30,611 bases of DNA from a virus (IMGVR_UViG_3300009285_000553:1-30611), one strand, 5' to 3'. Positions 5,101 through 25,500 are shown, counted from the first letter of the stretch. The notes: generated from the letters alone by a model not told the origin. Made by a program: numbers and translations.

Positions 5101-5242
5101 GAAAGCCCGTCGCCTTGGCCGTGCGATGGCGGCGGAGGTCCGGCGCAGGCGGATGCACCTGGCGCCGGTGAACCACACGCTCGGGCACCAGCGATCCATC
5201 CCGGCATGGGTGTCGAGGCCGACGGGGTCCGTGGTGCGATGA
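5090..5242 (+). CDS. Small basic protein between TerS and TerL (50 aa)
   Basis: ATG at 5090 overlaps the end of TerS, and the frame ends in TGA that overlaps the TerL start as ATGA. The product (MASKKARRLGRAMAAEVRRR, then HLAPVNHTLGHQRSIP) is very basic at its N-terminus and could bind DNA or RNA. No family is recognised and the ribosome-binding site is poor. The tight overlaps on both sides argue that it is translated as a link between the two terminase genes. It could instead be a chance frame bridging a short gap. Confidence 0.45.
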   Translation: MASKKARRLGRAMAAEVRRRRMHLAPVNHTLGHQRSIPAWVSRPTGSVVR

Positions 5243-6609
5243 ACCTTGCCGGCGAATCCCGCGACCTCACGTTGACCCCGACTCAGGGGAAGTTCATCAA
5301 CCTCCCCGCGCCGAAGTTTCAGGCCTTCATGGGCGGGGTGGGAAATGGGAAGACGACCGCAGGCATCATCAAGGCCGATCTGATCGCCGAGGCGTACCCG
5401 GGGAGCCGGGGTCTGGTAGGCCGGCAGGACTTCACCGATCTTAGCCGCACCACGTGGCGCGAATTCTTTGCGTGGAGGCCCGACCTCGGAAAGAGGTACC
5501 ACGGCACCAGCCACGTCCTGCGCTACCCAAACGGGTCCGAGATACTGTTCTCCGAGCTCTCAGACCTTCCCGGGCTCATGTCGCTCAACCTCGACTGGTT
5601 CTACGTTGACCAAGTCGAGGAGTTGTGCGAGGACGCGTTCCTGGCTCTGGCCGGGCGGCTGCGCGGAAAGACCGGCCCCCGCCTCGGCTTTATGACCGGC
5701 AACCCTGCCGGGCACGACTGGATTTGGAAGCGGTTCAAGCAGGCCGTCGCCGGTGGCGAATACGCACTCTTCGAGAGCCCGAGCCAAGAGAACGAGAAGA
5801 ACCTGCCTTCGGACTACCTTCCAACCCTCCTGGCCAACGCGCCCGAGCGGTGGATCAAGCGCTACGTCTACGGCTCTTGGGATTCCTTCGAGGGCCTGAT
5901 CTGGCCCGAGTTCATCGAGGCCATCCACGTTGTGACCCCGTTCAAGATTCCTTCCGAGTGGCGGCGCATCGTCTGCGTGGACTTCGGCTATCGGCATCCC
6001 ACGGCTGTGCTCTTCACCGCCGAGGACCAGGACGGGACGCTATGGGTCTATGACGAGTACCGATGCACCGGGACCAGGATCGAGGACACATGCCGGGAAA
6101 TACTTTCGCGGATGAAGGCCGAGGACGTGGACGAGAGCCAGCGGTTACGGCTTGGCGATCCGTCCATGTTTGCGGAGGACCGTGAGGACGCCATCGGCAT
6201 CACCTCAGTTGCGGATCAATTTGTCACGCATGGGTTGTCTCTGAGTCGCGCTAACAACGACGTGCGCGGCGGCATAGACAAGGTCGCCGAGTACCTGAAG
6301 ACCCAACGGCTGAAGGTCTTCCGTAACTGCATCATGTTCCGGGAGGAGATCGGCGACTACCAGTGGGAGAAGTTGAAGGGCACCCTGCTCGGGGTGAAGC
6401 TCGATCCGGAGAGGCCGAGGAAGATCAATGATGATCTGTGCGATTGCGCTAGGTATACCGCCAACAGCCGGGCCTTTTTCCGTCCCCCGAGTGCACCCGG
6501 CCAGAGAATTCACATCCCGCGTCCCGTGAATCTCGGCGGCTTCATGGGCGGCGCTCGCAGGGAGGATCGTGGCCCCGTGCGCATCGGCTCCGAGGGGTGG
6601 AAGCGATGA
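5239..6609 (+). CDS. Terminase large subunit (DNA-packaging ATPase/nuclease)
   Basis: The 456-residue product has all parts of a TerL motor. Walker A is GGVGNGKT at 32-39, Walker B WFYVDQVEE has its Asp at 124 and catalytic Glu at 127/128, and a coupling motif is seen at FMTGNP. The RNase H-like nuclease has acidic residues at D248 (CVDFGYRHPTAVL), D307 (LGDPSMF) and D398/D399 (INDDLCDCARY). TerL cuts the concatemer and pumps DNA through the portal. The ATG at 5239 is preferred over one at 5206 because it overlaps the upstream TGA as ATGA and the extra residues do not resemble the family N-terminus. It is the last gene before the late promoter. Confidence 0.93.
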   Translation: MNLAGESRDLTLTPTQGKFINLPAPKFQAFMGGVGNGKTTAGIIKADLIAEAYPGSRGLVGRQDFTDLSRTTWREFFAWRPDLGKRYHGTSHVLRYPNGSEILFSELSDLPGLMSLNLDWFYVDQVEELCEDAFLALAGRLRGKTGPRLGFMTGNPAGHDWIWKRFKQAVAGGEYALFESPSQENEKNLPSDYLPTLLANAPERWIKRYVYGSWDSFEGLIWPEFIEAIHVVTPFKIPSEWRRIVCVDFGYRHPTAVLFTAEDQDGTLWVYDEYRCTGTRIEDTCREILSRMKAEDVDESQRLRLGDPSMFAEDREDAIGITSVADQFVTHGLSLSRANNDVRGGIDKVAEYLKTQRLKVFRNCIMFREEIGDYQWEKLKGTLLGVKLDPERPRKINDDLCDCARYTANSRAFFRPPSAPGQRIHIPRPVNLGGFMGGARREDRGPVRIGSEGWKR

Positions 6610-6658: not shown

Positions 6659-6790
6659 AATGCGGGGGCTGAGTATCGCGTAAACCAAGAAGAGCGGCAC
6701 GGCTGATCCCCGTGTCGTTCCACAACTTCGCGACGTGGAAAACGCCCGTGTGCTGGTCTGACCAGGGCCTGCACCGGGCGTTTTCTTTTT
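6659..6790 (+). ncRNA. Short structured leader transcript ending in a terminator
   Basis: The predicted transcript holds three successive hairpins. The first is CGGCACGG (6695-6702) with CCGTGTCG (6710-6717), 8 pairs with one G-U. The second is TTCCAC (6718-6723) with GTGGAA (6735-6740). The third is the terminator stem starting at 6738. Hairpins one and two are directly adjacent, and hairpin two shares three bases with the terminator stem. The 195 bases between TerL and portal contain no convincing gene, although the portal frame is open upstream to 6712. The layout resembles late leaders controlled by antitermination, such as lambda pR'/tR' or the put RNAs of HK022, but no sequence relation to those is claimed. 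Confidence 0.5.
6738..6790 (+). terminator. Intrinsic terminator between late promoter and portal
   Basis: GAAAACGCCCG (6738-6748) pairs with CGGGCGTTTTC (6775-6785) over 11 bases. An inner extension pairs GTGC with GCAC, and a CTGGT/ACCAG mini-hairpin lies inside. The T-rich run TTTTCTTTTT ends at 6790. The portal ribosome-binding site (GAGGAGA) follows at once, so unmodified polymerase would be expected to stop before the late genes. Confidence 0.75.
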
Positions 6791-6804
6791 GGGTTGAGGA
6801 GAAC

Positions 6805-8835
6805 ATGGCAGACGAACTTGACGCCAAGGTAGACCCATCCGATCAGGAAGTCCTGATCCGGACCTTCCTTGGCAGAGCGAAGGACGCCTTCCAGGCCAGG
6901 TTGACCTGGTTCCACAACCAGCTGAAGAGCCAGAGCATCCGGAGGGGAATCCTCCAGACGGTGGACTGGCCCTATCCCGGGGCATCGAATCCGAACATTC
7001 CCGTGACCGACGCCATTGTGCGGCGCAAGAAGAGCGGCGTCCTGAACGTCCTTGCGATCCGGCCCATGGTCCAGGTGGACGTGCCGGATGAGGGGGCGAG
7101 TCCGAATCTTGGGTTGAGGCTTCAGCAGTGGATGCTGGACACCTACGACCAGATGCGCGTCAGGCGTTTTTACGAGCCTTTGGTGGACGGGTGGCTTGAG
7201 CGGTCGTCCTACTTCGTCAAGGTCGGCCACAAGTACGAGCGGACCTACCAGAGCACCGTGATAGACCTGGATCTGATGACCTCCCTGGACCAGGCCATGT
7301 TCAGCGCCATGCAGCAGATCAGTCTCCCGGAGGCTTTCGCCGCGGCCTACAAGATGGACCTGGCCGACGAGCAGGACGCCGAGGAGATCGCCAAGGCCGT
7401 GAAGCAGTACGAGGCCGGGAAGCGCCGCATCCGACTGAAGCGCAAGGTCGTGACGGCGGACATCCCGGACTGGGACGTGATCTGCGGCGAGGACATGATC
7501 CGCGAGGCTTCCGCGCCCAAGGACATCCAGGCGCACCACTGGTTCATCCATCGGTTCAAGCAGAAGGTCGCCCATATCCGGCGCAAGGTCGAGGACGGCT
7601 CATACGACAAGGCCGCGTTGGAGATGGTGAAGAATGCCCGCGGAGCCGACTGGTTCGGGGGCGACGGCGAACAGGCGGCAGAGCAAGCTCAGGAGGTTGC
7701 CGAGGGACTGGCCATTCCCCAGATGCGCGGCCAGGGCTCCGACAACCAGGACGTCGACAACGAGAACGTGGAGATCGAGACCTACGCGATGTTCACCTGG
7801 TGGAGTCCAGATCCAGAGCGCGAACCCGCACGCCGCGCCTGCTTCACGCTTTTCCCAGCCTACCACGGCGGGAAGTTCGTGAAGATGGAGTGGCTGGATG
7901 AGGAGTACTGGCCGTTCCAGGAGTTTGACTACGACAATCCGTCCCATGACACCTACGGCGGGCGCTCGGTCCCGCTGATGAACGAGACCTTGGCGGTGGA
8001 GATCAACAGCCTACACAAGTCCTTCCTCGACATGCTTCCGTGGGTAAGTGCCATGGCTGGGACCTACGATCCGGACAAGCTGGTTGGGAGCAGCGGGGCG
8101 GCCTTCACGCTGTCGCCTGGCGAGTTTGCCCCGGCCCGTGGTGGTCAGGCGTTGTTCCCCGTGGCATCACCACGCGGTGGCGCCGAGATTGTCGGCGAGG
8201 CCAACGCCCTCCAGAGCCACAGCGAGAACCTGTTCGGCCCGTTGCAGGCCACCCTGAATCGCCGACAAGGCGGAGGCGACCCGACCAAGTACGAGGTCCA
8301 GACCATGCAGGGCGAGGACAACAGCCTCCAGGCGATGGAGATAGATTCCTTCCAGGAGAGCATGAACTTCGTTCACCAGATGACCATGGACGACATGATC
8401 AAGAACATGCCTCCCGTGGTCAGGTTCCCGTTCCGGGCTCCGGACGGTTCGCTTCAGCACGAGGAGGTGAGCCGCGACGAGGTTCAGGGGATGAAGATCC
8501 GGGTCAAGGCTCACGGCAACCTGAGGAATGCGAATCCGCAGGACGAGATTCAGTTCCTGCTCGGGGTCATCAACATGGCTCCGACGCTCGTGCAGTTTGG
8601 CGTGATGCCGGACATCCGGAAGATCGCGCAACGGATCATGGCTCTGCACGGCGAGAGGAATCCCCAGGAGTTCATCCCGGATGCGCCGGCCATGCCGGCA
8701 GGAGGACCAGGTGGGCAAGATCCTCGGTTGGCTCAGCTCATGGCGCAGATGCAGGGTGGTGGCGGAGCCTCTCCCGGGCGCGGTGCGCCTGTCCAGGCTC
8801 CTCCACAAGCGGTCCCCGCAGGAGCGGTTGCGTGA
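6805..8835 (+). CDS. Portal protein (head-to-tail connector, 676 aa)
   Basis: ATG at 6805 follows GAGGAGAAC. An in-frame GTG at 6712 lies inside the leader and is rejected. The 676-residue product is of podovirus-portal length. It has an N-terminal helical clamp region (FLGRAKDAFQARLTW), a YPGASNPNIPVTDAIVRRK segment, a central wing region, and a helix-rich C-terminal third (NEVQT-like stretch YEVQTMQGEDNSLQAME) ending in a Gly/Pro/Ala tail. Portals form the dodecameric ring through which DNA is packaged and ejected. It sits directly after TerL and ahead of scaffold and capsid, the canonical order. The call rests on this order, length and general pattern. Confidence 0.85.
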   Translation: MADELDAKVDPSDQEVLIRTFLGRAKDAFQARLTWFHNQLKSQSIRRGILQTVDWPYPGASNPNIPVTDAIVRRKKSGVLNVLAIRPMVQVDVPDEGASPNLGLRLQQWMLDTYDQMRVRRFYEPLVDGWLERSSYFVKVGHKYERTYQSTVIDLDLMTSLDQAMFSAMQQISLPEAFAAAYKMDLADEQDAEEIAKAVKQYEAGKRRIRLKRKVVTADIPDWDVICGEDMIREASAPKDIQAHHWFIHRFKQKVAHIRRKVEDGSYDKAALEMVKNARGADWFGGDGEQAAEQAQEVAEGLAIPQMRGQGSDNQDVDNENVEIETYAMFTWWSPDPEREPARRACFTLFPAYHGGKFVKMEWLDEEYWPFQEFDYDNPSHDTYGGRSVPLMNETLAVEINSLHKSFLDMLPWVSAMAGTYDPDKLVGSSGAAFTLSPGEFAPARGGQALFPVASPRGGAEIVGEANALQSHSENLFGPLQATLNRRQGGGDPTKYEVQTMQGEDNSLQAMEIDSFQESMNFVHQMTMDDMIKNMPPVVRFPFRAPDGSLQHEEVSRDEVQGMKIRVKAHGNLRNANPQDEIQFLLGVINMAPTLVQFGVMPDIRKIAQRIMALHGERNPQEFIPDAPAMPAGGPGGQDPRLAQLMAQMQGGGGASPGRGAPVQAPPQAVPAGAVA

Positions 8836-9136
8836 CGCCAAGGACATCGAGCAGGTGCTTGCGGACCCCCGGGCGGCGAAGCTCTTCGAGTATGCGGCAA
8901 TCTCGCTTGATGGCCAGTGGCAGTACGCCAGCGCGGACACGTTCCGTGAGTGCCAGGGGATGGCGCGGATGCTGAACCTGCTTGCCCGTCTCCCGGAGGC
9001 CGTCGGCGCCCAGGCCATGAAGGAGATCGAGGCCCAGGATGCGGCCAAGAAGCAGGCCCTTATCCCTGAGATGCGGGAGGATGGGCTTGCGGCTGTCTTA
9101 CAAGGATTGAAGCATTTCGAGAGGGAAGGGAACTGA
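8828..9136 (+). CDS. Small helical head protein of unknown function (102 aa)
   Basis: The frame after portal encodes a helical protein (LRDAKDIEQVLADPRAAKLF, then WQYASADTFRECQGMARMLNLL, ending LKHFEREGN). The probable start is TTG at 8828, three bases after AGGAG and overlapping the portal stop by eight bases. A GTG at 8783 in the same frame is an alternative with a weaker site. Small helical proteins are common between portal and scaffold in podovirus-like operons. No family is recognised. Confidence 0.6.
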   Translation: MRDAKDIEQVLADPRAAKLFEYAAISLDGQWQYASADTFRECQGMARMLNLLARLPEAVGAQAMKEIEAQDAAKKQALIPEMREDGLAAVLQGLKHFEREGN

Positions 9137-10362: not shown

Positions 10363-11343
10363 ATGGCACAGTTGCAGTTTGGTGTAGCGGCGGAAGGCGG
10401 ACGGCTTTCCACCCCGCACCTGTCCAAGATGTTGCGCCACAGGGCGCAGCCGTTCATGCGGATCAGGCATCTTGCGGAGCCCATGGAGGGCGGCGAGACG
10501 ACTGGGCGCGGGGACACGCTCTACTTCAGCAAGGTCGGGGACATCGCCGTCACCGGCTCTTCGCTTGTGGAGAGCGCAACGATCCCGTCCGGGAAGCCTC
10601 CCATCACCCAGGGGTCAGTGGTGATGAAGGAGTGGGGCTATCAGGTGCCGTTCACCAGCAAGCTCGGGACGCTTTCCGAGTACGACATCAAGAAGCTCAT
10701 CAACAAGACCCTGACCAACCACGCCGCCAAGACCCTGGAGAATGCGGCTGGCGTGGCGGCGACAAGCCGTCTGCTCAAGTTCTCCTGCACGGCGACCGCG
10801 GCCGGCATGATGACGACCGATGGGACCTTCGGGGCCACGGCGTCGTTTCAGATGAACCTGGATCACGTGAAGGACGTGGTGGACTTCTTCAACAAGAACT
10901 CCATCCCTCCGTTCGATTCCCAGGGCAACTACGTGTGCGTCGCCACCGTGGCGGCCATGCGTGGGCTCAGGGACTCGCTGGAGAGCACCCTGGCTTACAC
11001 CGAGAGCGGCCAACAGGCCAAGGAAGGCGGAGGCATCGGACGCGGCCTGTCCAAGCTCCCCGGGGAGCTGGGCAAGTTCTACAACGTCCGGTTCATGCTG
11101 GCGACGAGCTTCCTGTCCCAAGCGGTCGGGACGAGCACCAACAAGGGGGAGGCCCTGTTCTTCGGTGGGGACGCTCTGAAGGAGTTCGCGGCCATCAATG
11201 AGGAGATCCGGATCAAGGTGCCCCAGGATTACGACCGCGACCAGGGCATCGCTTGGTATTGCATGACGGCTTTTATCGCTCCCTGGCTTTGGAGCGATGA
11301 TTCTCAGGAAAACATCTGTCATTTGGGAAGTCTTATGTCTTAG
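10363..11343 (+). CDS. Major capsid protein, HK97-fold (N4 gp56-like)
   Basis: The 326-residue product begins MAQLQFGVAAEGGRLSTPH and has features of N4 gp56-type capsid proteins: an early GRGDTLYFSKVGDI strand, WGYQVPFTSKLGTLSEYDIKK leading into the long spine helix (LINKTLTNHAAKTLENAA), a peripheral-domain segment FQMNLDHVKDVVDFFNKNS, and a C-terminal YDRDQGIAWYCMTAFIAPW beta-strand region. It forms the icosahedral shell. GGGAAAGG lies nine bases before the ATG. It directly follows scaffold and precedes a possible decoration protein. Capsid fold is confident. The exact family is from memory of sequence pattern. Confidence 0.85.
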   Translation: MAQLQFGVAAEGGRLSTPHLSKMLRHRAQPFMRIRHLAEPMEGGETTGRGDTLYFSKVGDIAVTGSSLVESATIPSGKPPITQGSVVMKEWGYQVPFTSKLGTLSEYDIKKLINKTLTNHAAKTLENAAGVAATSRLLKFSCTATAAGMMTTDGTFGATASFQMNLDHVKDVVDFFNKNSIPPFDSQGNYVCVATVAAMRGLRDSLESTLAYTESGQQAKEGGGIGRGLSKLPGELGKFYNVRFMLATSFLSQAVGTSTNKGEALFFGGDALKEFAAINEEIRIKVPQDYDRDQGIAWYCMTAFIAPWLWSDDSQENICHLGSLMS

Positions 11344-11391: not shown

Positions 11392-11802
11392 ATGGGAGAC
11401 AGTTATGCAGATTCGCGTTTCGGTGGGGTAAAGATCGACTCCCTGCCGACCTTCAACGCCAACTCGGCAAACGCCCGGAAGGTTGTATGGAACGCGCCGA
11501 GGACGGAGAAGGGATCAATCGGGACGGTGAAGGTCCTGCGGGTGAGCATCACGCCCACCACGGCAGGCACGTCCACCGGGGGAAACCTCAAGGCGGAAGT
11601 CCTGAAGAATACGTCAACCCTGGGCACGGTGACGCTGAACTCCGCCACGGCGGGGTCAATCAACGCCATTCAGGGCTCCCCGTTGGGGACGTTCACCACG
11701 GGGGACCTGCTCAGCATCGGGAACATCGGTTCGGATGCGGCAGGGGTATTCCAGCCCGCGGTGGAGTACCAGGAGCAGTTCACCGGGACGGCTACGGACT
11801 AG
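11392..11802 (+). CDS. Possible capsid decoration protein (136 aa, beta-rich)
   Basis: This 136-residue protein is rich in Thr, Ser, Gly and Ala (VSITPTTAGTSTGGNLKAEV, then SINAIQGSPLGTFTTGDLLS) and has the alternating pattern of an all-beta domain. It follows the major capsid gene and is itself followed by a terminator-like hairpin, the usual place for head decoration or cement proteins that bind the outer shell. No specific family is recognised, so the role is inferred from position, size and composition. Confidence 0.55.
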   Translation: MGDSYADSRFGGVKIDSLPTFNANSANARKVVWNAPRTEKGSIGTVKVLRVSITPTTAGTSTGGNLKAEVLKNTSTLGTVTLNSATAGSINAIQGSPLGTFTTGDLLSIGNIGSDAAGVFQPAVEYQEQFTGTATD

Positions 11803-12519: not shown

Positions 12520-14139
12520 ATGGAGCCGGATCTGGAGTGCCGCAAGGCCAGGCCCAGGGTCGCCAAGTACTTGAAGGGTCTTGGTCTTGACCTCGGGGGC
12601 GGCGCGGAGCCCATCACCTCGAACGCCCTCGTGGTGGATTTGGGGTGTCCCACGGCGACGTTCATGCACGACCTTGGGTCCCCGGGCGCGCTCCGTCCTT
12701 TCGCGGACGGCTCCATGGACTTTGTGTTCAGCGCCTTCACCCTGAACGAGATCGTGGACCCGAAGATGGCTCTGGGCGAGTGGTGGAGGGTCTTGAAGAA
12801 CGGGGGACGGCTGATCCTCTACCTCCCGCACAAGGCCCTCTACCCCCTACCAGGCAAGGAGGGGGCAAGCCCGAGGCACCGCCACGCATGGGACTCCTCC
12901 GACATCCTGGCGGCTATCCCTGGGGGGTATCAAATCGAGGAGAACACCATCTGCGACAAGGATCAGGAGTACGCCTTCCTGCTGGTCCTGCGGAAGATCG
13001 TCGGCATCGAGGGTATTTTCAAGATGATGCCACGATACGACACCCGTCCTCGCGCTTGCGTGTTTCGCGCCGGTGGGTGGGGCGACTGCCTGATGGCTAT
13101 CCCTGTCCTGCGCGAGTTGAAGGCCCAGGGCTATCACGTGACCTTCTACACCCAGAAGCAGGGCGCCGAGGTCATGCGCCACGAACCCTCGATAGACGAG
13201 CTGGTGGAACTCTTCGAGGACCAGATCAACCCCTATCTGCTTGGGGACTTCCTGGCCCGTCTCTCGACGCACTTCGACCGCTTCATCAACCTAAGCCAGA
13301 CCTGCGAGCGCGTCCTGCTCTTCCGTGGCAAGGGCGGCAAGCACTTCGAGGACTCTGACGAGCCCCAGGATGCGCAGTACGCGCTGCCTTACGAGGAGCG
13401 TCACAAAATCGCCGACAGGAACTATCAGGAGTACGTGAATGAGATTTCGGGTCTCCCGAATCTCTCCCCTGTGCCGCAACCGATGGTCCTGACAGAGCAT
13501 GACAGGGGGATGGGCGCACTGATCCGGGAGGACCACAAGGACAACTTCCTGGTTCTCCTCAGCCTTGGAGGATCATCGAACCACAAACTCTTCGTCCGGG
13601 CCAAGGAGTTTGTGCATCGGTTCCTGGCGGCCTGTCCCAGGGCCAGGTTTATCACGTCCGGGGACATCGGAAAGCAGATGCTGGAATGGAAGCAGGCCGG
13701 GGTGGCAAACAGGTGCGGGCTCATGCCGTTCCGCTCCTCCGCCATCGTTGCCTCAGTGGCCGATCTCGTGGTGACGCCGGAGACCGGGCTGGCCTGGGTC
13801 GCGGCTGGGTTCAAGACTTCGCAGATCGTCCTCCTGTCCCACTCATCCGTGCAGAACCTGACCAAGCACTGGGCGAACACCGTCTCCATCCTGCCTACCG
13901 TCCCGTGCGCCCCGTGCCACCAGATCCACAACACGCCGATGGACTGCGTGACCGACGACGCCCACCTCCTGCCGCAAGGCCCGACCCCCATTCCGATCTG
14001 CGCCTCCCGGCTGGACATGGACGCCTTGATGAGCGCGGCCACCCTCCGCTACGAGGCGTGGCTGGCAGGCTGGATAGAGGCCCAGGATACGCTGGTGCCC
14101 CAAAACGGGCGGTTACAGGCGGCTTTGGTGACGGCATGA
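12520..14139 (+). CDS. Methyltransferase-GT9 glycosyltransferase fusion (539 aa)
   Basis: Residues 1 to about 165 look like a class I SAM-dependent methyltransferase: motif I LDLGGG at 23-28, DLGC in a second strand, FADGSMDFVFSAFTLNEIVD, and WWRVLKNGGRLILYLP. From M170 a GT-B glycosyltransferase of GT9 type follows: VFRAGGWGDCLMAIPVLRE near 181-199, a central strand FLVLLSLGGSSNH, the nucleotide-sugar site VVTPETGLAWVAAG, and a Cys motif PCAPCHQIHNTPMDC. GT9 enzymes transfer heptose or related sugars. ATG at 12520 follows TTGGAG. A GTG at 12502 is an alternative. It heads a four-gene set joined by ATGA overlaps. Acceptor and sugar cannot be told from sequence. Confidence 0.8.
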   Translation: MEPDLECRKARPRVAKYLKGLGLDLGGGAEPITSNALVVDLGCPTATFMHDLGSPGALRPFADGSMDFVFSAFTLNEIVDPKMALGEWWRVLKNGGRLILYLPHKALYPLPGKEGASPRHRHAWDSSDILAAIPGGYQIEENTICDKDQEYAFLLVLRKIVGIEGIFKMMPRYDTRPRACVFRAGGWGDCLMAIPVLRELKAQGYHVTFYTQKQGAEVMRHEPSIDELVELFEDQINPYLLGDFLARLSTHFDRFINLSQTCERVLLFRGKGGKHFEDSDEPQDAQYALPYEERHKIADRNYQEYVNEISGLPNLSPVPQPMVLTEHDRGMGALIREDHKDNFLVLLSLGGSSNHKLFVRAKEFVHRFLAACPRARFITSGDIGKQMLEWKQAGVANRCGLMPFRSSAIVASVADLVVTPETGLAWVAAGFKTSQIVLLSHSSVQNLTKHWANTVSILPTVPCAPCHQIHNTPMDCVTDDAHLLPQGPTPIPICASRLDMDALMSAATLRYEAWLAGWIEAQDTLVPQNGRLQAALVTA

Positions 14140-14816
14140 CCCTTTCAGCCTTCCGGCCTCCGATCACGCTCCCAAGGGGCTCCTTGGCCCACCTGACCCT
14201 CAAGGACGGCTCCGTGGTGGGTCAAAACGAGGGGCGGCTGGACCTGATGACAGCCTGGATGCAGGAGCACCCCGAACTCTTCGAGGGGCGCCGCGTGCTC
14301 GACCTCGGGTCAAACTGCGGACATTTCCCCATCATCATGGCCCAACTCGGGGCGGATGTGTCCGCAGTCGAGCCCAGGCCTGGGATGTGCGCAGTATTCC
14401 GCGCCCTGTTGGAGAACACGGAGCACAAGGGGATCGTGGTCATCCACCAAGAAGACCTCCGGCACGTTGATTTCCGCGGGCTCCGGTGCGACATCCTCTC
14501 GTGCCTCGGGTTGATCTACCACTTGGAGGAACCCTGGAAGGTCATGGGGCGCATCCTGGACCAGCTCCACCCGTCCGTGTGGCTGGTGGAAAGCCAGCTC
14601 TTCGACATGACCCACCGGGCCATGGAGGGGGGGCACACCACCAACTCAACTCTGGCCTGGGAGCCCGGGCCGGTCTTGCAACCAAGCGCCGAGGAGGTCG
14701 AGCGCGGCATCCGGTCCTGTGGCTACGAGCCGGAGCGCGTGGACTTGGGAAAGGACTACCACTCGGACAACGGCGAAGCCAGAGGGCTCTGGATCGCCAG
14801 GCGGGTGTTCACATGA
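14136..14816 (+). CDS. Class I SAM-dependent methyltransferase (226 aa)
   Basis: The start overlaps the upstream stop as ATGA. The product has a clear motif I (VLDLGSNCGHFPIIMAQLGA), a second-strand acidic residue (VSAVEPRPG), DILSCLGLIYHLEEPW at the usual motif IV position, and a C-terminal beta region. DILSCLGLIYHLEEPW is reminiscent of the CmoB/DUF1698 branch, in which related domains modify tRNA or sugars. The neighbours are glycosyltransferases, so a sugar or glycoprotein substrate is more likely. It overlaps the next gene as ATGA, keeping the cassette in one translational unit. Confidence 0.8.
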   Translation: MTLSAFRPPITLPRGSLAHLTLKDGSVVGQNEGRLDLMTAWMQEHPELFEGRRVLDLGSNCGHFPIIMAQLGADVSAVEPRPGMCAVFRALLENTEHKGIVVIHQEDLRHVDFRGLRCDILSCLGLIYHLEEPWKVMGRILDQLHPSVWLVESQLFDMTHRAMEGGHTTNSTLAWEPGPVLQPSAEEVERGIRSCGYEPERVDLGKDYHSDNGEARGLWIARRVFT

Positions 14817-15956
14817 TCGAGACCCTAGAAGGAATGGGACCAAAAGACCTCGCTGGCAAGCGGGTCATGGCCGTTCGCTGGGGGGCGCTTTGGCGACTCA
14901 GTGGCACTCAGCCCTTTCCTTCGCTGGCTGAAGCGGGAGGGTGCTGAAGTGGTGCTGAACACTTCTGAACGTGGGCGGCATGTCCTGCACGGCCTCCAGT
15001 GCATTGACTGGTTCGACCTCTACCGGACGGATTCCGTGCCGGTGGACAAGTGGAAGGAGTACATGCGCACCCGGGCGGCAGAGAACAAGTGCGACATCCT
15101 CCTGGACTTCTGCGGGTCCATCGAGTCCTCCCTGTCCCCGTCTGCATCGGAGCCGCTGTACAAGGTGCCGAAGAGCGAGCGCCATGCCCGGTGCAACGTG
15201 AACTACTACGAGCAGATGTGGCACTACTGCGGGGCCTCCTGGGCGCTCCCGGACTTGACCTCTGCCGACCTCCGGCCCGAGATGGCCCTGTCCCATTCTG
15301 AGGTCCGAGTGGTGGAGGAGTTTCTTGGCAACGGGCTCTCCAATGGCAACCGCCTCATGGTCGTGTGCTGGACAGGCTCCAGCCCGGCCAAGCGCTACCC
15401 ATGGATGAAGGACGTGATCGGGGAGATCATGCGCCTGCACCCGGAACTCTACTGCGTCGTTGTCGGGGACCAGACGGTTGACCTCCGGGGCCTGGCCCAG
15501 GAAACCGGGGGGCGCATCTGCTCCCGGATGACGCACTGGTCCTTCAGGAAGGCCTGTGCCGCGGGCTCTCTGGCCGACGTGACCGTGGCACCCGATACCG
15601 GCTTCCTCCACGCCATGGGGGCATTCCCTGTGCCCAAGGTGGGCATTTTGGGCGCGAACACCATCGAGAATCTGACCAAGCACTTCCTGAACGACTTCTC
15701 CATCGAGGCGAACAGCCGGACGGTGGGGTGCTCCCCGTGCCATCGGCTGATCCAGGACAGCGCCATCCAGTGCGAGACCGAGCGGTTCCCGTGGGAAGGG
15801 TCCCCATCCGGTACGGCCGACATCGCCTGGTGCTTGAGCCTTGGAATAGACCCCGATGATGTCGTGGCGCGGATCGAGGCCGGCTTGGCTGTCGAGAACC
15901 CCCTGGCCTGGTCCCGACTCCACCCGGTGAAGGAGGCGGCTCTTGTCTGCGCCTAG
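14813..15956 (+). CDS. GT9-like glycosyltransferase with a +1 frame discontinuity
   Basis: Translation should begin at ATG 14813 (ATGA overlap) and gives MIETLEGMGPKDLAGKRVMA then VRWG, but this frame stops at 14945. The family continues in the +1 frame as GDSVALSPFLRWLKREGAEV. Joining the two at 14880-14891 restores a canonical GT9 N-terminus (R-x-G-x-x-GD-x-x-x-xxP). The distal part has a PDTGFLHAMGA donor-site motif and a Cys motif CSPCHRLI, both parallel to the fusion enzyme upstream, so the two are paralogous. The joined product would be about 380 residues. The break may be a G-run indel, programmed frameshifting or an assembly error. Confidence 0.7.
14880..14891 (+). other. Frameshift site: six-G run followed by CTTT
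   Basis: Bases 14880-14885 are GGGGGG, followed by CGCTTT and then GGCGAC. Removing one G gives RWGRFGDS in frame. Alternatively, a +1 slip on CTT to TTT would give RWGALGDS. Both restore the glycosyltransferase. The arrangement of a G-rich Shine-Dalgarno-like run shortly before CTT T resembles the prfB site, but TGG replaces TGA. Confidence 0.6.
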
Positions 15957-16734
15957 CATCCTGCTTCCGGAGAAGGAGACCAAGGTGCTCCCTGGGTTGG
16001 AGACGTGTCCAGTGTGCCTTGAAAACGCCTGCTTCCCGTGGCTGGTTGAACATGCCGGAGCGTCAAGGGCATGGATGCTCTGCGAGTGCGGGACGTTCTT
16101 CCAGGTCTCCGGGCAGGCACCGCTGGCACCGGAGGACCGCACCAAGGACATCGAGCGCTTGGCAGACCAGAAACTCAGGGGAGAATGGCTGGAACGCTAC
16201 ACCTGGAACGCCCGCCTCTACCTCCCCCTGATCGAGGACATGCAGTTCGGGCGCAAGGTCCTGGTCTACCGCTACGCTCACAAGGACTCCTTGGAGTGGA
16301 TGCGGGACAGGGGCTGGCTCCCGGTCGGGGTGGACGACTGCCCCGCAGCGGATCCCGGTGAGAATCCGAATCAGGGATGCGACTTCATGTCCATCGTCCC
16401 GGTGGAGCCGTTCAGGAGGTTCAACCTGATCTGGATGCAGGACTCGATCCAGAGCGTTTCGCATCCAGGGCCGCTCCTGCTCAGGGCCTACGCCATGCTG
16501 GAGAAGGACGGCCTTCTGTTCGTCTCGGCCCCCGAGGTGTCGTTCTTCTTCCGTGTCCATCCCGAGCGCTTCGGGCACTTCGATCCTGTGGCGAACCGGC
16601 TCCTGATGCGCGGGGAGACCTTCGCCAAGGTCGCAGAATCGCTCGGCTTCAACGTGATCCTTCTCAGGAAGTCCGCGTCCAGATGCGGGATCGTGAACCA
16701 GCAGTTTCACGTGATTTTACAGAGGAGGGCCTAG
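15943..16734 (+). CDS. Zinc-domain methyltransferase-like protein, probably degenerate (263 aa)
   Basis: TTG at 15943 is six bases after AGGAGG and overlaps the preceding gene. The N-terminus has CPVCLENACF and LCECGTFF, four cysteines in the pattern of a zinc-binding domain often fused to sugar C-methyltransferases. The rest follows a methyltransferase plan (RKVLVYRYAHKDSLEWMRDR, then FNLIWMQDSIQSVSHPGPLL, then AYAMLEKDGLLFVSAPE). The glycine-rich SAM loop is replaced by VYRYAHKD, so SAM binding is doubtful. It ends the modification cassette, and the connector gene starts directly after its stop. Confidence 0.65.
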   Translation: MSAPSILLPEKETKVLPGLETCPVCLENACFPWLVEHAGASRAWMLCECGTFFQVSGQAPLAPEDRTKDIERLADQKLRGEWLERYTWNARLYLPLIEDMQFGRKVLVYRYAHKDSLEWMRDRGWLPVGVDDCPAADPGENPNQGCDFMSIVPVEPFRRFNLIWMQDSIQSVSHPGPLLLRAYAMLEKDGLLFVSAPEVSFFFRVHPERFGHFDPVANRLLMRGETFAKVAESLGFNVILLRKSASRCGIVNQQFHVILQRRA

Positions 16735-17670
16735 ATGCGTCAGAATCTCGGCCAGCTCGTCACCCGCATCCAGGCGAACACGGGGATCAACGCGGCCACC
16801 TACGACACCAAGGTTAAGGCATGGCTGAACGAGGTCTACGAGGACGTGTACGACACATTCCTCTGGCCTGGGAGCCTGATCCGGGGGAGTCTGTCAACCG
16901 TCGTAAGCCAGGACTTCCTGGTGATGCCTCCCAACGTGCGGCGCGTGATCTTCCTGAGCCAGGAGTCGAGTCCCGAGTGGCTCCGGTTCTCGGACACCGC
17001 GCAGTTTGTGCGCTCCTTCTTCGCCAACTTCGGGAGCACCGGGACACCGACGGACTGGACTGACGACGGGGAGAGTCCCGTCCTGGCCCAGCCGAGCGCC
17101 GCGTCCGTTCTCGCCATCGCCTCGGCATCGGCCTCCGACGTGGCGCAAAGCATCCGCATCCAGGGGCGCGACGCCAACGGCGTGTTCCTGACGGAATCGG
17201 TCCAGCTGAGCGGGCTTACCCCTGTCAACTCCGCCAACTCCTACACCTCGATCGAGATGATCTCCAAGACGGACACGACGGTGGGGATCGTGACCATCAC
17301 GTCCAACGCCGCCGCCGTGACAGTTGCCAGGATCGCGCCCCGGGATTTGGATTCCAAGAGCGTCCGGGTGCGCCTGAATGCTGTCCCGAGTGCGGTCATC
17401 TCGATCTACTACATCGCCAAGCGGCAACTCTACCGCCTGGTGAACGACGAGGACCAGTTGCTGATTGACGTGGACTCTGCCGTCGTGGCCGGTGCGACTG
17501 CCCTTGCCCTCCGGGAGCAGGGAGACCCATCGAGCGAGACCTGGGCCGCCCGTGCCGGGAGCGAGATTCAGAAGCGCCGCGACGAGATTCTGGGGCAGGG
17601 GATGCGGACGCTGAAACTGCAACCGGACGCGGCCCGCAACCGCAGGTCAAACTTCTTCGGGAGTTGGTGA
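16735..17670 (+). CDS. Head-tail connector/adaptor-like protein with beta insert (311 aa)
   Basis: ATG at 16735 follows GAGGAGG. The N-terminus (LGQLVTRIQANTGI, then VKAWLNEVYEDVYDTFLWPG) is helical and resembles podovirus adaptor proteins that dock under the portal. Residues about 115-220 are Ser/Thr/Ala/Val-rich and look like an inserted beta-sandwich. The C-terminal helices (VAGATALALREQGDPSSETW) return to the adaptor style. The gene restarts the virion operon after the modification cassette. Connector assignment is from position and pattern, and an accessory tail protein is possible. Confidence 0.6.
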   Translation: MRQNLGQLVTRIQANTGINAATYDTKVKAWLNEVYEDVYDTFLWPGSLIRGSLSTVVSQDFLVMPPNVRRVIFLSQESSPEWLRFSDTAQFVRSFFANFGSTGTPTDWTDDGESPVLAQPSAASVLAIASASASDVAQSIRIQGRDANGVFLTESVQLSGLTPVNSANSYTSIEMISKTDTTVGIVTITSNAAAVTVARIAPRDLDSKSVRVRLNAVPSAVISIYYIAKRQLYRLVNDEDQLLIDVDSAVVAGATALALREQGDPSSETWAARAGSEIQKRRDEILGQGMRTLKLQPDAARNRRSNFFGSW

Positions 17671-19187
17671 TGAGCGTAGGCGACCGTCTCACCTATCTGT
17701 TCGAGGGCCTGCAACGCGGGCAGTTCTCGAATGCCAACGCATCCATCATCCCGGACGGGTACTGCGCCTCCCTGGTCAACGTCAGCCTGAACAAGTTCGG
17801 GATGTTGCAGAAGATCCCGGGGCGATCCAACACGGCGGGGGGCCTGACCAGCGGGCAGTTGAGGCGCCTGCTCTTCTACGCTCCCGCCGGCGGGACGCGG
17901 GAGTTCCTGGCCTACCAGGGGACAGCGCTCCACAACTGGCCGAACTCGGGGACGTGGGCGACCATCACGGGAGCCACCGGCCTTGCCGATGAGCCGGTTG
18001 ATCTCATCCAGGCAGGGAGTTACGTGTTCCTCCTGAAAAAGGGAGAGGTCTGTCGCTATTGGGACGGGACCATCATCACGGCCTTCACCGACACGAATAC
18101 CGATCCCCCCAAGGTGAAGTACGGCATCTACATGCTGGGCTGGATGCTTATGTGGGATGCCGACTTGCTCTACTACCCGACCAACGGGACTCCTGCCGTC
18201 GGATGGAACCGGACCTCAAAGGCCCTGGCGGTCGGGCTCGGGGAGGGCGGAGACGCCACGGGATTGAAGCAGTGGTCCAACCAGGACCTGATCCTGACCA
18301 AGGAAGGGCGCATCTACTCCGTCACGATCAACAACGCCACCCCGACAAACTGGACCATCACGCCCATCACGGACGACATCGGGTGCGTGTCCGGGCGCAC
18401 CATGAGCCAGTTCGGGGAAGAGTTCTTCTTCCTTGCCCAGGATGGCATCCGGTCCCTGACCCAGAGCGCCCAGGACAAGAAGCGCGGAGCGGCTCTCCCG
18501 CTCTCCTGGCCGATCCAGGACGTGATAGACACGATCAACTGGCAGTATGCCAAGGACGTGGCCTGCGCGACCCAGTGGAAGGGGGAGTACTGGCTTTCCT
18601 TCCCGACAGCGGCCAGCCAGGTGAACAACAAGACCGTGATCTACAGTCCGAGATCCCAGGGATTCACCACGTTGGACCAGGGTTTCGCCGACTTCAACGT
18701 GGGGCGCTTCTCGAACAGTCCGCGCCTCTACTCCGGGAGAGGGGTTGCAACCGGGGGTGTGGACCTTGAGGACGACGGTTTCGACGACCGGGGGAGCGCC
18801 AAGACCTGGACCGTCAAGACCAAGCGCGTGAACGGTAACAACGGGAGCCCTGCCCCGCACATCTATAAGCGCGGCGGGGAATTGGAAGCGTTCTTCGAGT
18901 CCACCGGCTCCTATGTGGTCAGCGTCTACGCCTCGATTGACGGGGGTTCCAACACGTTGCTTGGGACCATGACCCTGACGGGGAGTCTGCCGCAACTCTC
19001 GATTGACCTCCCGTTCAACCTGGCGGATCAGAGCATCAGCCGGAAGAAGTTCTACCTCGATCTTCTTGGCCGCTGGCGGGACGTGGATTTTACTTTCGAG
19101 TGCACCGACCTTGAAGCCGACGTGCGGTTGATCCGGGCGATTCTCTCGACGATCCCTGCGGATTATGTGAGGGGGGACGATCAATGA
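17670..19187 (+). CDS. Large beta-rich tail hub/nozzle protein (505 aa)
   Basis: ATG at 17670 lies seven bases after GGAG and overlaps the upstream TGA. TTG and GTG codons directly upstream are alternatives. The product begins with LFEGLQRGQFSNANASIIPD, GYCASLVNVSLNKFGMLQKI and PGR, a pattern seen in podovirus tail proteins of the P22 gp10/T7 gp12 kind. It then shows repeated blade-like beta units (GSYVFLLKKGEVCRYWDGT; DLILTKEGRIYSVTI; EEFFFLAQDGIRSLTQ), suggesting a beta-propeller. Such proteins form the tail hub or nozzle below the connector. Direct homology is not proven. Confidence 0.65.
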   Translation: MSVGDRLTYLFEGLQRGQFSNANASIIPDGYCASLVNVSLNKFGMLQKIPGRSNTAGGLTSGQLRRLLFYAPAGGTREFLAYQGTALHNWPNSGTWATITGATGLADEPVDLIQAGSYVFLLKKGEVCRYWDGTIITAFTDTNTDPPKVKYGIYMLGWMLMWDADLLYYPTNGTPAVGWNRTSKALAVGLGEGGDATGLKQWSNQDLILTKEGRIYSVTINNATPTNWTITPITDDIGCVSGRTMSQFGEEFFFLAQDGIRSLTQSAQDKKRGAALPLSWPIQDVIDTINWQYAKDVACATQWKGEYWLSFPTAASQVNNKTVIYSPRSQGFTTLDQGFADFNVGRFSNSPRLYSGRGVATGGVDLEDDGFDDRGSAKTWTVKTKRVNGNNGSPAPHIYKRGGELEAFFESTGSYVVSVYASIDGGSNTLLGTMTLTGSLPQLSIDLPFNLADQSISRKKFYLDLLGRWRDVDFTFECTDLEADVRLIRAILSTIPADYVRGDDQ

Positions 19188-21577: not shown

Positions 21578-22546
21578 ATGGCAGGCGAATTCGATCCGTC
21601 GGGACTTTTCGAGATGGGCAGACAGATCCAGACCATTGACCAGTCCAACCGCCAGCTCGCGCAGAATCAGCAGGAGCACGAGATGCGGAGCCGGCAGTTG
21701 GACATGCAGGAGAAGCAACTCGGCTCCCAGTTGGAGATGAACCGGATCGCGGCCATGCGGGCCGGCATAGCGATCGAGAAGGACGGCTCGGCACGCGACA
21801 TGACGCCTGCCGAGATCGCCAACCGGGACGCCGCCCAACAGGGTCTTGCCGTGTCCCCCGGCGTGAACACCTGGGAAGCCCTGGGGATGGTCCCGAAGGG
21901 CGCGAGTGCCGACGAAGCGCTCCGCGTCATCCAGTCCAGCATCAGGAAGCCGTCCTACCGCCACGCCGTGACCGGGGAGGAGTTCGTGCCCACCGAGAAG
22001 GGCTTCATCCCCAAGAGCCAGCGCGAGTTGAACCAGCGCGTCGAGGCCGCCCGGGCCAAGCAAATTGAGGAAGGCGGCGAGACGGTGACGGTCCCGGGGC
22101 TTGTGGACCCCGAAACCGGCCAGCCCATGCAAGTCCCGCTCAGGTACGCGGCGGCATTTACGCGGAGCGGGGGGTGGGTATCCCCGGGGGCGCAGGAAAG
22201 GACCGCACTTCAGATCGGGGATCTAGAAGCGAAGGCTACAGCCTTGCAAGAAGAGCTGGACACGCTTTCTAAACCCGCGCTCACAAGCGATGGGAAGCCG
22301 GTGAGTTCAGCCTTGGATGCCATCCTGAACAAGGGTAGGGCCGAAAAGATCGCTGGTCTTCAAGCGAAACTGACCGAGGCGCGAGGCAAGATCGCGGCTA
22401 GACGCAAGACTACTGCGCCGCCTGCTTCGGCGCGGCCTTCCGTAGATGAGGCTGAGTTCCCGAAGGGCACCAAGAAGCAAAAAAACCAAGACACCGGGGA
22501 GATTCGATACGTTCTCCCGGATGGATCGGTGGTGAATGCCCGATAG
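21578..22546 (+). CDS. Coiled-coil internal virion-type protein (322 aa)
   Basis: ATG at 21578 follows TAGGAGG, whose first bases are the stop codon of the previous gene. The first 60 residues (IQTIDQSNRQLAQNQQEHEM, then DMQEKQLGSQLEMNRIAAMR) form a Gln/Glu-rich coiled coil. The middle includes VTVPGLVDPETGQPMQVPLR and a second coiled coil (LEAKATALQEELDTLS). The tail is basic and ends DTGEIRYVLPDGSVVNAR. It overlaps the giant virion gene by 11 bases. A role in DNA ejection or as a partner of the giant protein is inferred from neighbours. Confidence 0.55.
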   Translation: MAGEFDPSGLFEMGRQIQTIDQSNRQLAQNQQEHEMRSRQLDMQEKQLGSQLEMNRIAAMRAGIAIEKDGSARDMTPAEIANRDAAQQGLAVSPGVNTWEALGMVPKGASADEALRVIQSSIRKPSYRHAVTGEEFVPTEKGFIPKSQRELNQRVEAARAKQIEEGGETVTVPGLVDPETGQPMQVPLRYAAAFTRSGGWVSPGAQERTALQIGDLEAKATALQEELDTLSKPALTSDGKPVSSALDAILNKGRAEKIAGLQAKLTEARGKIAARRKTTAPPASARPSVDEAEFPKGTKKQKNQDTGEIRYVLPDGSVVNAR

Positions 22547-25500
22547 ATGGGAAGATGTCGGGATCGTCGGCGAAGCACCGGATGACTTCGGACGCTGGGA
22601 GGATGTCGGCGTCGTAGGGACGCTTGAACCCCCTGTTGCTCCCGCCAAGCCACCGGATGAGCCCAGCCTGTTCAGTAGATTCGGGACATCCCTGAAGCGA
22701 ACCTTCCGGGAGCAGACCGGAGGGCTGGATGCTGGCAAGTCTGGCTACCCTCTGGAATCCCTCTCTCCACAGGATCGCTATGGCATCGAGCGCCACTTCG
22801 CGGTCAACGAGATGGACCCGGACTGGAACGCCTACGACAAGGCTCAGCAGGATACCTTGCTCCGGCATACCAGAACCCAAGCTAGGATGCAGACGCACCC
22901 CGAGGAGTTCGGATCGCCTGCCTTGGACGTTGCCGGGCGGATGTTTCGAGGTGCGATGTCTCCTTTGATCTACACCGCGAAGACGGCAGTTGCCGCCGCC
23001 GAACTCGGATACCGACAGTTGAAGGGTGCGGTTTTCCCGACGCCAGCCGTCACAGGCCAGGAAGCGTGGGACACCCTGAAGGATGAGTGGAAGAAGGCAA
23101 CGCTCATCTCCTTCCCACCCGTCGAAGGCAAGCCACCGTACCTCCAGGTTGATCCGAAGGAGTGGGCCGACGAGTTAGCCGAAGACCTTAACAAGGCATC
23201 GGGTGGAGAGTTGAGCGGTGTGCGCGTCCCCATCCCTGGCTATGGCGACGTAGACCCGAAGGTATTCTTTACGCAGATCGCCGCGAATGCCGTTCAACTT
23301 ATCCCTGAGTTGATCGGATCAGGATTCATTCCGGCCTACACCTCGAAAAAGGGATTCTACTTCCAGCCTGTCATACCGCCCAGCCCAGTAAAGCCTGGTG
23401 CGAAACCTCGCGTAAGGCTGCCAAGTCCAGAAGAAACTCGTCAAGCGGCCTACGCGCATACCGAGAAAGTCCTATTCGAGGGGGACTTCGGCGCTCGTCT
23501 TGCTGAGAATCCTACGCCTACTGATGTGGCAATCGCCAACAGGACTGCCAAGGCAATCTACAGAAGGTTTGGCATCGAGGATCAGGCTGTAACCTACACC
23601 GCAGAGGATCTAGCCAGTGGGAAAGGTGGCGCTGGACTATCAGTGACGCCTACCCCCGTAACCCCTTCTGGCAAGGCGCTGATGGCCCCAGGAGAGGCCG
23701 AAGCCCCTCCAGTGCCCCGGAAGGTCGCCGCGGAACCCGTAGCCCCAGCAGGGGGAGAATGGCGGGATGTCGCCATTCTCGGGGAAGGCGGAGCTGGCGC
23801 GGAGGCTCCTGCCGGTGTAGCAGTGAAGATCCCAGGGGTAGGCCAAGTCCCGCTTGGGCCGTCGGCACCGGCGCCTTCTCCCAAGACGAAAGAACCATGG
23901 CAGATGACTAGGGCGGAAGCGGTCGGCGAGACTCCTGTTGTTCCGGATGGCAATACCTCTACACTCAAGAAACGTTACGGGGCGACAGGTCCAACACCGG
24001 CTCAGGCCAAAGCGTTCCGTCAAGTGGATGCGGAGCGGTCCAAGGCACTGAAACTCTACAAAGCGTACGTCGAGCACAGCAACGCTCACATGGAGGCTGT
24101 GCGGGATGCTGTCAAGGCCGGCAAGCCGGTGCCCATGGAAGTGCTGGCCGAGTACCCATCACTTGCTCCGGAATCTCCGGCCTCCACGCCCAACGAGCCG
24201 ATGCCGCCAGCGCCTGTCGCCCCTGGCTCCCCCGATGTCGTTGTGGCTCCGCACCCTGAGACTGATGAGAGCCTGTTCACGCACGATGCTTCCGGGAAGC
24301 CGTTGAAGGAATCCGAGCGGACGGGGCTGACCAAGCCGCAGACGGACTACTTCGTCAAGGCCCTCCAGAAGGCTCAGGAGGGGGCGCCGCTTGCAGCGGA
24401 TGTCGAAGCCTTGAAGGACCTGCCACCGAATCGGGCTAGCACGGCGTTCATGGACCCGAAGGAGCTGGCCTCCCTCTACAAGGAGATCGTGGCCGTCACG
24501 ATCCAGGTGCCTGGGGACGGGGAGTTCACCGTGGTCCGGACGGCAGAAAACCTCGCGGAGATGCTGGATACCCTCGGGGTGAAGCCGGAACCAAACCCGG
24601 TCAAGGCGTGGGTGCCATTCGCGGCCAAGGAGAACGGACGCTACGCCATGAAGGCAGTCATGGTCGAGAAGGGCCAGGTGACGGCGACGGATGGCCGGTT
24701 GCTCGTCCGAACCAAGATGGACACGAGCAAGTTGCCGCAGGGCATGACGGATTCCGCGACAGGCCAGCCGATGACTGAGGGTTCCTTCCCAAAGACAGAC
24801 GAACTGTTCGCGCTGAAGCTGAAGCCTCTTGGTTCCATTTCTGTTGAGGATCTGTCAAAGGCAGTCAGGAAACCAGCGCCTGATGGAGGCAAGTCAGATG
24901 TCGTGATGTTCGGGCCGACGGCAATCAGCACCAGCTTCGCAAAGAAGGTCGCCGTGTTTCTCAAAGGACAGGGAGAGCAGTCCGTGCAGGTCTTCGGCGG
25001 AGACTTCGACAAGTCGGTCCAGTTCGTCGCCGGCAACCACCACATTATCGTCATGCCAAGGGTGGACCCATCAACTGAAGTGTCCGCGCCGTGGACTGAC
25101 ACGGCCCGCGCCGTCAGGGCGATGGACACCAAGAGCGCCTACGGGAAGAAGGTGCGTGTCGCGGGTGAGACGCAGGGGTCCAGGGCTCGGATGGAAGAGG
25201 CCTCTGCTTCTCAAGCGGTAGCGGAGAAGACTCCGTCGGAGGCGTTTGAGAATCAGTCTCCCATGGATCAGGTGCCGTCGCGTCAGGAGATCATAGACAA
25301 GATTTCCAAGGCGCTGGCCCTCCCGATCCGTATCGGCCATTCCAGGCTGTTCAGCCGAGGGATCGCATCGGGGATCTTCAAGGGCAAGACCGGCTACAAC
25401 GTGGCGCGTCTCGCCAAGGCGCAGGACGTTGCGGTCGCGGCCCACGAGGCTTTCCACCATCTCGACGCGATATGGAAACTCCAGCTCAGGCCCTACTACG

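Follow-up and report, generated by a model that had tools for sequence, protein, structure and literature searches.

Introduction

Glycosylation of virions has been shown so far in a few Actinobacteria phages, among them the mycobacteriophages Che8, Rita and members of cluster O (Freeman et al. 2023, as cited in PMC11256854 and PMC11600133). In the cluster O phages, an O-methyltransferase and three glycosyltransferases (GTs) are reported to modify the capsid and the tail tube (PMC11600133). TibC, a bacterial autotransporter heptosyltransferase, relies on Asp110 and Lys230, with iron bound by Cys 339, 342, 358, and 370 (PMC4358343). Here, a four-gene cassette of glycosyltransferase and methyltransferase genes (12520-16734) is described from IMGVR_UViG_3300009285_000553:1-30611, a virus fragment from IMG/VR that spans 30,611 bases and carries a podovirus-like operon of head and tail genes on the + strand; the whole of this fragment is referred to as the window. 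Its first gene encodes a fusion of a methyltransferase and a family 9 glycosyltransferase (GT9), which recurs between the major capsid protein (MCP) gene and the connector gene of unrelated phages. We consider it probable, with considerable room for doubt, that the cassette serves as a glycan module of the head operon, whose enzymes glycosylate and methylate a head protein in the cytoplasm. A system of this kind is already known, since mycobacteriophage virion glycosylation pairs glycosyltransferases with an O-methyltransferase. The methyltransferase-GT9 fusion, its fixed MCP-connector place and its breadth in Gram-negative phages appear undescribed in the literature searched, which took in few subscription journals.

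Domain architecture and predicted fold of the fusion

The fusion gene (12520..14139, + strand) encodes a 539-aa protein, the layout of which was determined using Pfam, a 35-member alignment and AlphaFold; a methyltransferase occupies approximately residues 1-163 and a GT9 domain approximately residues 175-516. Pfam analysis revealed Methyltransf_11 (2.8e-9) and Glyco_transf_9 (PF01075, 4.2e-4), the latter with 20.1 bits in hmmscan and 22.2 bits together with neighbouring stretches, at a cut-off of 22. The second GT9 of the window received 13.2 bits, and both GT9 proteins of the related contig L294 exceeded the cut-off (GT9a 24.7, GT9b 28.6).

The AlphaFold model of the fusion, built with 35 sequences, had a pLDDT of 85.2 and a pTM of 0.85. 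Comparison of its GT half using VIA-align gave Z 22.7 to 3tov, 21.6 to WaaF, 20.1 to TibC and 19.6 to WaaC, with plant NDH subunit-like chains at Z 19.8 and the following group, UDP-GlcNAc 2-epimerases, at Z 14.4. The methyltransferase half aligned with class I methyltransferases at Z of about 14. The model thus assigns the GT half to the GT-B fold of heptosyltransferase type. A search of the PDB by sequence alone reached GT9 structures weakly (3tov, 0.011), and TibC surfaced by fold only. The claim of a methyltransferase-GT9 fusion, made earlier in a sequence-only reading of the window, is supported by the Pfam matches and the GT9-type fold.

Residues R183, G188-D189, S352, K356, R405, E421, and W451 were invariant in 35/35 fusions, as were C463, C466, H467, H470, C476, and C494 in the same alignment. 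D189, located in the N-terminal GD motif, is the predicted catalytic Asp; from the motif context, Asp189 and Lys356 are taken as the putative counterparts of TibC Asp110 and Lys230. The C-terminal element of the fusion, with four invariant Cys and two invariant His, has the form C-x2-C-H-x2-H-x5-C...C.

Position of the fusion in viral contigs and prophages

Scans of viral contigs with single proteins (fusion, second GT9, MCP) produced no matches, and alignments were needed. A scan with the two GT9 domains of the window recovered 52 contigs, nearly all of which carried a methyltransferase-GT9 fusion approximately 1 kb 3' of a window-type MCP gene; the gene following the fusion could be identified as Pfam SU10_adaptor in L149 and L139. 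With the 35-member fusion alignment, at least 577 confirmed stretches were obtained from viral contigs. Among 50,697 sequenced phage records, tblastn with the GT-bearing proteins or their homologues revealed no GT9 match and only methyltransferase pieces.

The locus survey covered 153 fusion loci, found through the glycosyltransferase and with some contigs counted twice. A same-strand MCP gene was present upstream in 104 of the 108 loci having at least 4 kb of upstream sequence, and a connector-type gene followed within 2 kb downstream in 81 of 96 loci having at least 3 kb (median distance 21 nt). Removal of sequences at least 90% alike left 105 fusions. Upstream sequence of 4 kb or more was available for 82 of these, and 76 had the MCP gene on the same strand within 4.5 kb; downstream sequence of 2 kb or more was available for 79, and in 67 a connector-type gene followed within 1.5 kb. 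A TylF-type methyltransferase (macrocin O-methyltransferase family) could be observed in 18 loci, mostly directly upstream of the fusion. Standalone GT9 genes, with no methyltransferase half, were found directly 3' of the window-type MCP gene in many viral contigs (L298-L371). In one contig, the methyltransferase and GT9 halves are separate genes approximately 2 kb apart, still 3' of the MCP gene (L188:4990-5502 and 7827-8930).

The sequence-only reading had named widespread, unlinked host copies of these genes as the observation that would speak against it. A scan of bacterial genomes for the fusion returned 28 matches, at least 24 of which adjoin a phage capsid gene (19 window-type and 5 HK97-type). 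The bearers include Paraburkholderia, Zoogloea, Aromatoleum, Pseudothauera, Polaromonas and Magnetococcales, and sequenced bearers are mostly Gram-negative Pseudomonadota. The fusion as a borrowed host gene was considered and rejected, as the bacterial genome scan shows prophages. The presence of these prophages in sequenced environmental strains, such as Paraburkholderia rhynchosiae WSM 3937 (L190) and Aromatoleum anaerobium LuFRes1 (L196), makes the head-glycan reading directly testable.

In the HK97-type prophages, a protease-capsid gene (Pfam Phage_capsid, 3.8e-31) lies on one side of the fusion and a head-tail joining gene (Phage_attach, Phage_connect_1) on the other. A 106-row tree of the fusion required at least two independent changes to account for the HK97-type bearers. 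The tree and gene order indicate that the fusion gene moved between unrelated capsid lineages, with at least two HK97-type acquisitions, while its neighbours stayed of the same kind. No other observation argues as strongly for an enzyme that works on the head.

Contents of the MCP-connector interval in related phages

Sister podophages were collected with the gp10-like tail protein as bait, not with glycosyltransferases. All five (ctKR88 (L004), L008, L009, L010, and L054) carried a GT2-TPR-GT4 fusion of 760-810 aa directly upstream of the connector side, which came after an SU10-type MCP gene where the MCP was in view; some had extra glycosyltransferases and methyltransferases. A scan for this fusion located it shortly 3' of the MCP gene in approximately 20 further contigs (among L058-L090). 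The GT2-TPR-GT4 fusion is non-homologous to the window fusion, yet occupies the same slot. The premise of the sequence-only reading, that only structural genes are expected there, did not hold, as the MCP-connector interval often contains glycosyltransferases and methyltransferases in these phages.

The nearest whole cassettes were seen in L292-L294, where two GT9 genes, a gene for a zinc-ribbon Methyltransf_23 protein and a further gene lie between the MCP gene and SU10_adaptor; this further gene, the one next to the adaptor, encodes a homologue of the window fourth protein (E 7e-16, four Cys all conserved). L219, L220 and others carry a GT9, a zinc-ribbon methyltransferase and the fusion. 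The exact four-gene set was not found outside the window, but related phages have its components at the same position. The sequence-only reading could name no system of exactly this composition; a close relative exists in L292-L294, the setting is more ordinary than that reading had held, and the pattern extends much further.

The remaining cassette genes and the surrounding operon

As had been proposed from the sequence, the cassette consists of four consecutive + strand genes between head genes and the connector, with the MCP gene and small ORFs upstream and the connector-position gene (16735-17670) downstream. The second gene (14136..14816, + strand) encodes a 226-aa methyltransferase (Methyltransf_23, 7.8e-10), which had a weak match to EvdMO1 in the PDB (9.3e-4); no homologue was found in the MCP-connector slots of related phages. 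Among the profiles suggested earlier, Methyltransf_11/23 and GT9 gave matches, while DUF1698 matched this second methyltransferase only below threshold.

The second GT9 gene (14813..15956, + strand) is not one open frame. From ATG 14813, the frame is closed by a stop codon that ends at 14947, and the GT body lies in another frame, open over 14829-15956, in which the first start codon is GTG 14901. The two glycosyltransferases share the GD, (E/D)TG and C-x2-C-H motifs, as had been noted; the GD motif of the second (RFGDS) is in the body frame just after a G-run, and hence out of frame with ATG 14813. Because the body and GD motif align straight through to an intact homologue (L294:5959-7011; 31.6%, E 6e-52), the gene is regarded as a genuine GT9 gene, frame-broken near the six-G run at 14880-14885. 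The frame change may stem from an indel introduced in sequencing or assembly, from a recent mutation or from programmed frameshifting. The view that the two GT halves of the cassette are paralogues was supported by 25.5% identity over 302 aa (E 3e-19). A frame break could also be seen in a further fusion gene (L189:4504-6086), close to its C-terminal end.

The fourth gene (15943..16734, + strand, TTG start) encodes a zinc-ribbon methyltransferase-like protein (Methyltransf_23, 1.7e-7) with zinc-ribbon residues C22, C25, C47, and C49. The Gly-rich S-adenosylmethionine (SAM) loop (motif I) was not recognisable by eye in this protein or its L294 homologue, and a two-sequence AlphaFold model was poor (pLDDT 50). 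The ATGA-type overlaps described for the cassette are present at two junctions only (14136-14139 and 14813-14816); the third and fourth genes overlap by 14 nt, and the fourth abuts the connector gene, its TAG directly followed by ATG.

The cassette shows no sign of recent import, since its GC and its GC at third codon positions (GC3) are equal to those of the neighbour genes. The four genes as a one-off insertion were likewise rejected, on account of this composition and the recurrence of slot content in other phages. No membrane-span-like stretch was found in the four cassette proteins (19-residue hydropathy maxima 0.89-1.47); therefore, the acceptor is expected in the cytoplasm or at the inner membrane face.

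Upstream, the + strand operon includes TerL (5206-6609; phrog_2, 5e-35), a gene at the portal position (6712-8835, assigned by operon position) and the MCP gene (10363..11343), assigned by homology to the N4/PTXU04-like group. The window MCP had 30-33% identity to the 'putative major capsid protein' of Escherichia phage PTXU04 and to Vibrio podophage homologues. Directly 3' of it, 11392..11802 (+ strand) encodes a 136-aa Ser/Thr-rich small head protein, a candidate decoration protein and candidate acceptor; its Ser+Thr content of 23.5% was the highest among the window proteins examined. ORFs of comparable size come after the MCP gene in relatives, including the cassette-free PTXU04. Downstream, the head-tail connector/adaptor gene (16735..17670, + strand) was recognised from its place in the operon and its homology to the gene preceding the gp10-like protein in relatives. 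An alignment of the connector contained no segment of sufficient conservation for a scan. Its product had 35% identity to that of the ctKR88 connector-position gene, and the counterpart at this position is Pfam SU10_adaptor in L149, L139, L219, and L294. The following gene (17664..19187, + strand) encodes a gp10-like tail/stabilisation protein with 33% identity to the 'phage stabilization protein' of ctKR88 and a match to the phrog_3287 virion structural protein (2.8e-8).

Several fusion-bearing phages had interrupted MCP genes. Group I introns (Rfam RF00028) were detected between two capsid halves in L322:1877-2087 and L196:8082-8366, and near the capsid end in L152:2076-2308; LAGLIDADG-like ORFs occur between capsid halves in L152:683-1279 and L139:5013-5654. 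In the window itself, the virion operon encodes a protein of 1943 aa with a metallopeptidase-like motif, AHEAFHHLDA (22536-28367), and the left end of the fragment carries a gene for an AAA-type ATPase (GDSGSGKS) on the - strand (427-1407).

Proposed function and alternative explanations

In the proposed mechanism, the cassette would be made late, together with the MCP, and the soluble fusion would transfer an activated sugar (nucleoside diphosphate sugar, NDP-sugar) in the cytoplasm to a hydroxyl of a head protein. The acceptor may be the MCP or the adjoining small Ser/Thr-rich protein, and ADP-heptose is the best guess for the donor given the predicted WaaF/TibC-like fold. The methyltransferase half and the neighbouring methyltransferases would then methylate the sugar, which the second GT9 may extend, although the order of these steps is itself presumed. 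Virions would thereby receive a coat of short methylated glycans, the benefit of which could be shielding, stability or altered adsorption. Synteny in unrelated phages speaks strongly for head-linked sugar modification in the late operon: the linkage to capsid genes is fixed in both podovirus-type and HK97-type phages, and unrelated sugar enzymes recur in the slot. The sequence-only reading had favoured virion modification from late co-expression with the capsid; that preference is supported by the synteny, and not by its structural-genes-only premise.

The evidence for this interpretation comes from gene anatomy, homology, fold, conserved catalytic-type residues and linkage to the capsid gene, and several points weigh against it. 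Because the loci were found through the glycosyltransferase, the position figures describe where it resides, not the share of capsid loci bearing one. Annotations and ORF reading revealed no glycosyltransferase in the MCP-connector interval of the isolates PTXU04, Bas95 and Vibrio 234P8 or of the more remote relatives L038, L055, and L029. A Ser/Thr-rich acceptor was rejected as a diagnostic sign, since a protein of this kind is also encoded by the cassette-free PTXU04 and such richness alone is not specific. Moreover, WaaC and WaaF, the best-known GT9 enzymes, act on the lipopolysaccharide (LPS) core. For this last reason, the main rival is host-surface modification, in which the GT9s would modify the LPS inner core in the manner of WaaC/WaaF, at the cytoplasmic face, with the methyltransferases capping the product, for a superinfection block or progeny exit. 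The GT9 fold, the similarity to WaaF/WaaC, the mostly Gram-negative sequenced bearers and the established action of soluble GT9s on LPS core in cells all agree with it. Late expression would nevertheless be poor timing for a superinfection block, the capsid-connector position is fixed in unrelated phages, including the independent HK97-type arrivals, and the sister group fills the same slot with non-GT9 enzymes. We therefore regard action on the host surface as rather unlikely, even though PMC10449497 reads a GT9 and a methyltransferase in P. aeruginosa prophages as O-antigen (or DNA) modification.

The MCP-connector interval is a variable slot, often for sugar enzymes, since it is GT-filled in some phages and GT-free in others. 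It might accordingly be a merely permissive site, with the enzymes acting elsewhere in metabolism, and the occurrence of unrelated genes, including fibre-like or small structural genes in some relatives, is consistent with such parked cargo. This explanation appears improbable, because the fusion is rarely away from capsid genes (4/108 loci with at least 4 kb upstream lack a recognised MCP), its catalytic-type residues are invariant over deep divergence, and sugar enzymes rather than random genes repeatedly fill different slots. Transfer of sugar and methyl groups to phage DNA bases as a defence against nucleases is less probable still, and we give it very little credence. T4-type phage glycosyltransferases do modify DNA, and DNA was one of the targets offered for the P. 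aeruginosa prophages in PMC10449497. The fold relatives of the fusion, however, are LPS or protein heptosyltransferases, the methyltransferases match small-molecule/sugar-type families rather than DNA methylases, the cassette sits in the head operon, and no gene for a hydroxymethyl base was noticed in the 30.6-kb fragment, in which no systematic search was made.

Head-protein glycosylation is the preferred reading, and the recurrence of related gene sets at this position, in hundreds of uncultured phages and in bacterial prophages, suggests that the decoration of phage heads with methylated sugars by the phages themselves is common. A more specific version, offered only tentatively, is a widespread and hitherto undescribed class of capsid glycosylation modules in which the methyltransferase-GT9 fusions are protein O-heptosyltransferases that spread horizontally between the head operons of unrelated phages and settle between MCP and connector genes, giving methyl-heptose-coated heads in many Gram-negative phages. 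If so, the fusions might be TibC-like in working, not in membership, a proposition we hold equally loosely.

Comparison with known systems

The seroconversion gtrABC genes are also phage-borne glycosyltransferase genes. The gtr systems depend on membrane proteins, namely a flippase and membrane-embedded glycosyltransferases, in contrast to the four window proteins with their low hydropathy maxima. WaaC and WaaF share the GT-B fold and the GD and D/E-TG motifs with the window fusion, at approximately 12-14% identity in structural alignment. The fusion differs from them in its phage head-operon site, the fused methyltransferase and the invariant Cys/His element. The P. aeruginosa prophages D14C, D14O, and D14Q, likened here by description, have a GT9 gene adjoining a SAM-dependent methyltransferase gene; their authors suggested DNA or O-antigen modification (PMC10449497).

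TibC (4RAP/4RB4; PMC4358343) resembles the fusion in its GT-B fold (root mean square deviation 3.3 A over 270 residues), the catalytic-type Asp and Lys, and a four-Cys element near the C-terminus. It carries an N-terminal beta-barrel where the window fusion has a class I methyltransferase, and its substrate is an autotransporter. Since the Cys spacing also differs (x2, x15, x11 in TibC; x2, x9, x17 in the fusion) and the beta-barrel is lacking, the phage fusions are not placed in the TibC family.

The mycobacteriophage systems are alike in having phage-encoded glycosyltransferase and methyltransferase genes; in the mycobacteriophages, capsid and tail-tube proteins are reported to bear glycans. 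They belong to Actinobacteria phages, and the Maravista genes lie near the 3' end of the genome. The window system has a GT9-methyltransferase fusion between the MCP and the connector, with sequenced bearers mostly in Pseudomonadota. If the head-glycan reading is true, capsid glycans are common in Gram-negative phages as well, their synthesis relies on a methyltransferase-fused enzyme of heptosyltransferase type, and the glycan module came into capsid lineages that are unrelated, always at the same place in the operon. Capsid glycans would then count among the general variables in the biology of phages, with effects on stability, adsorption and recognition, beyond the few Actinobacteria phages described so far.

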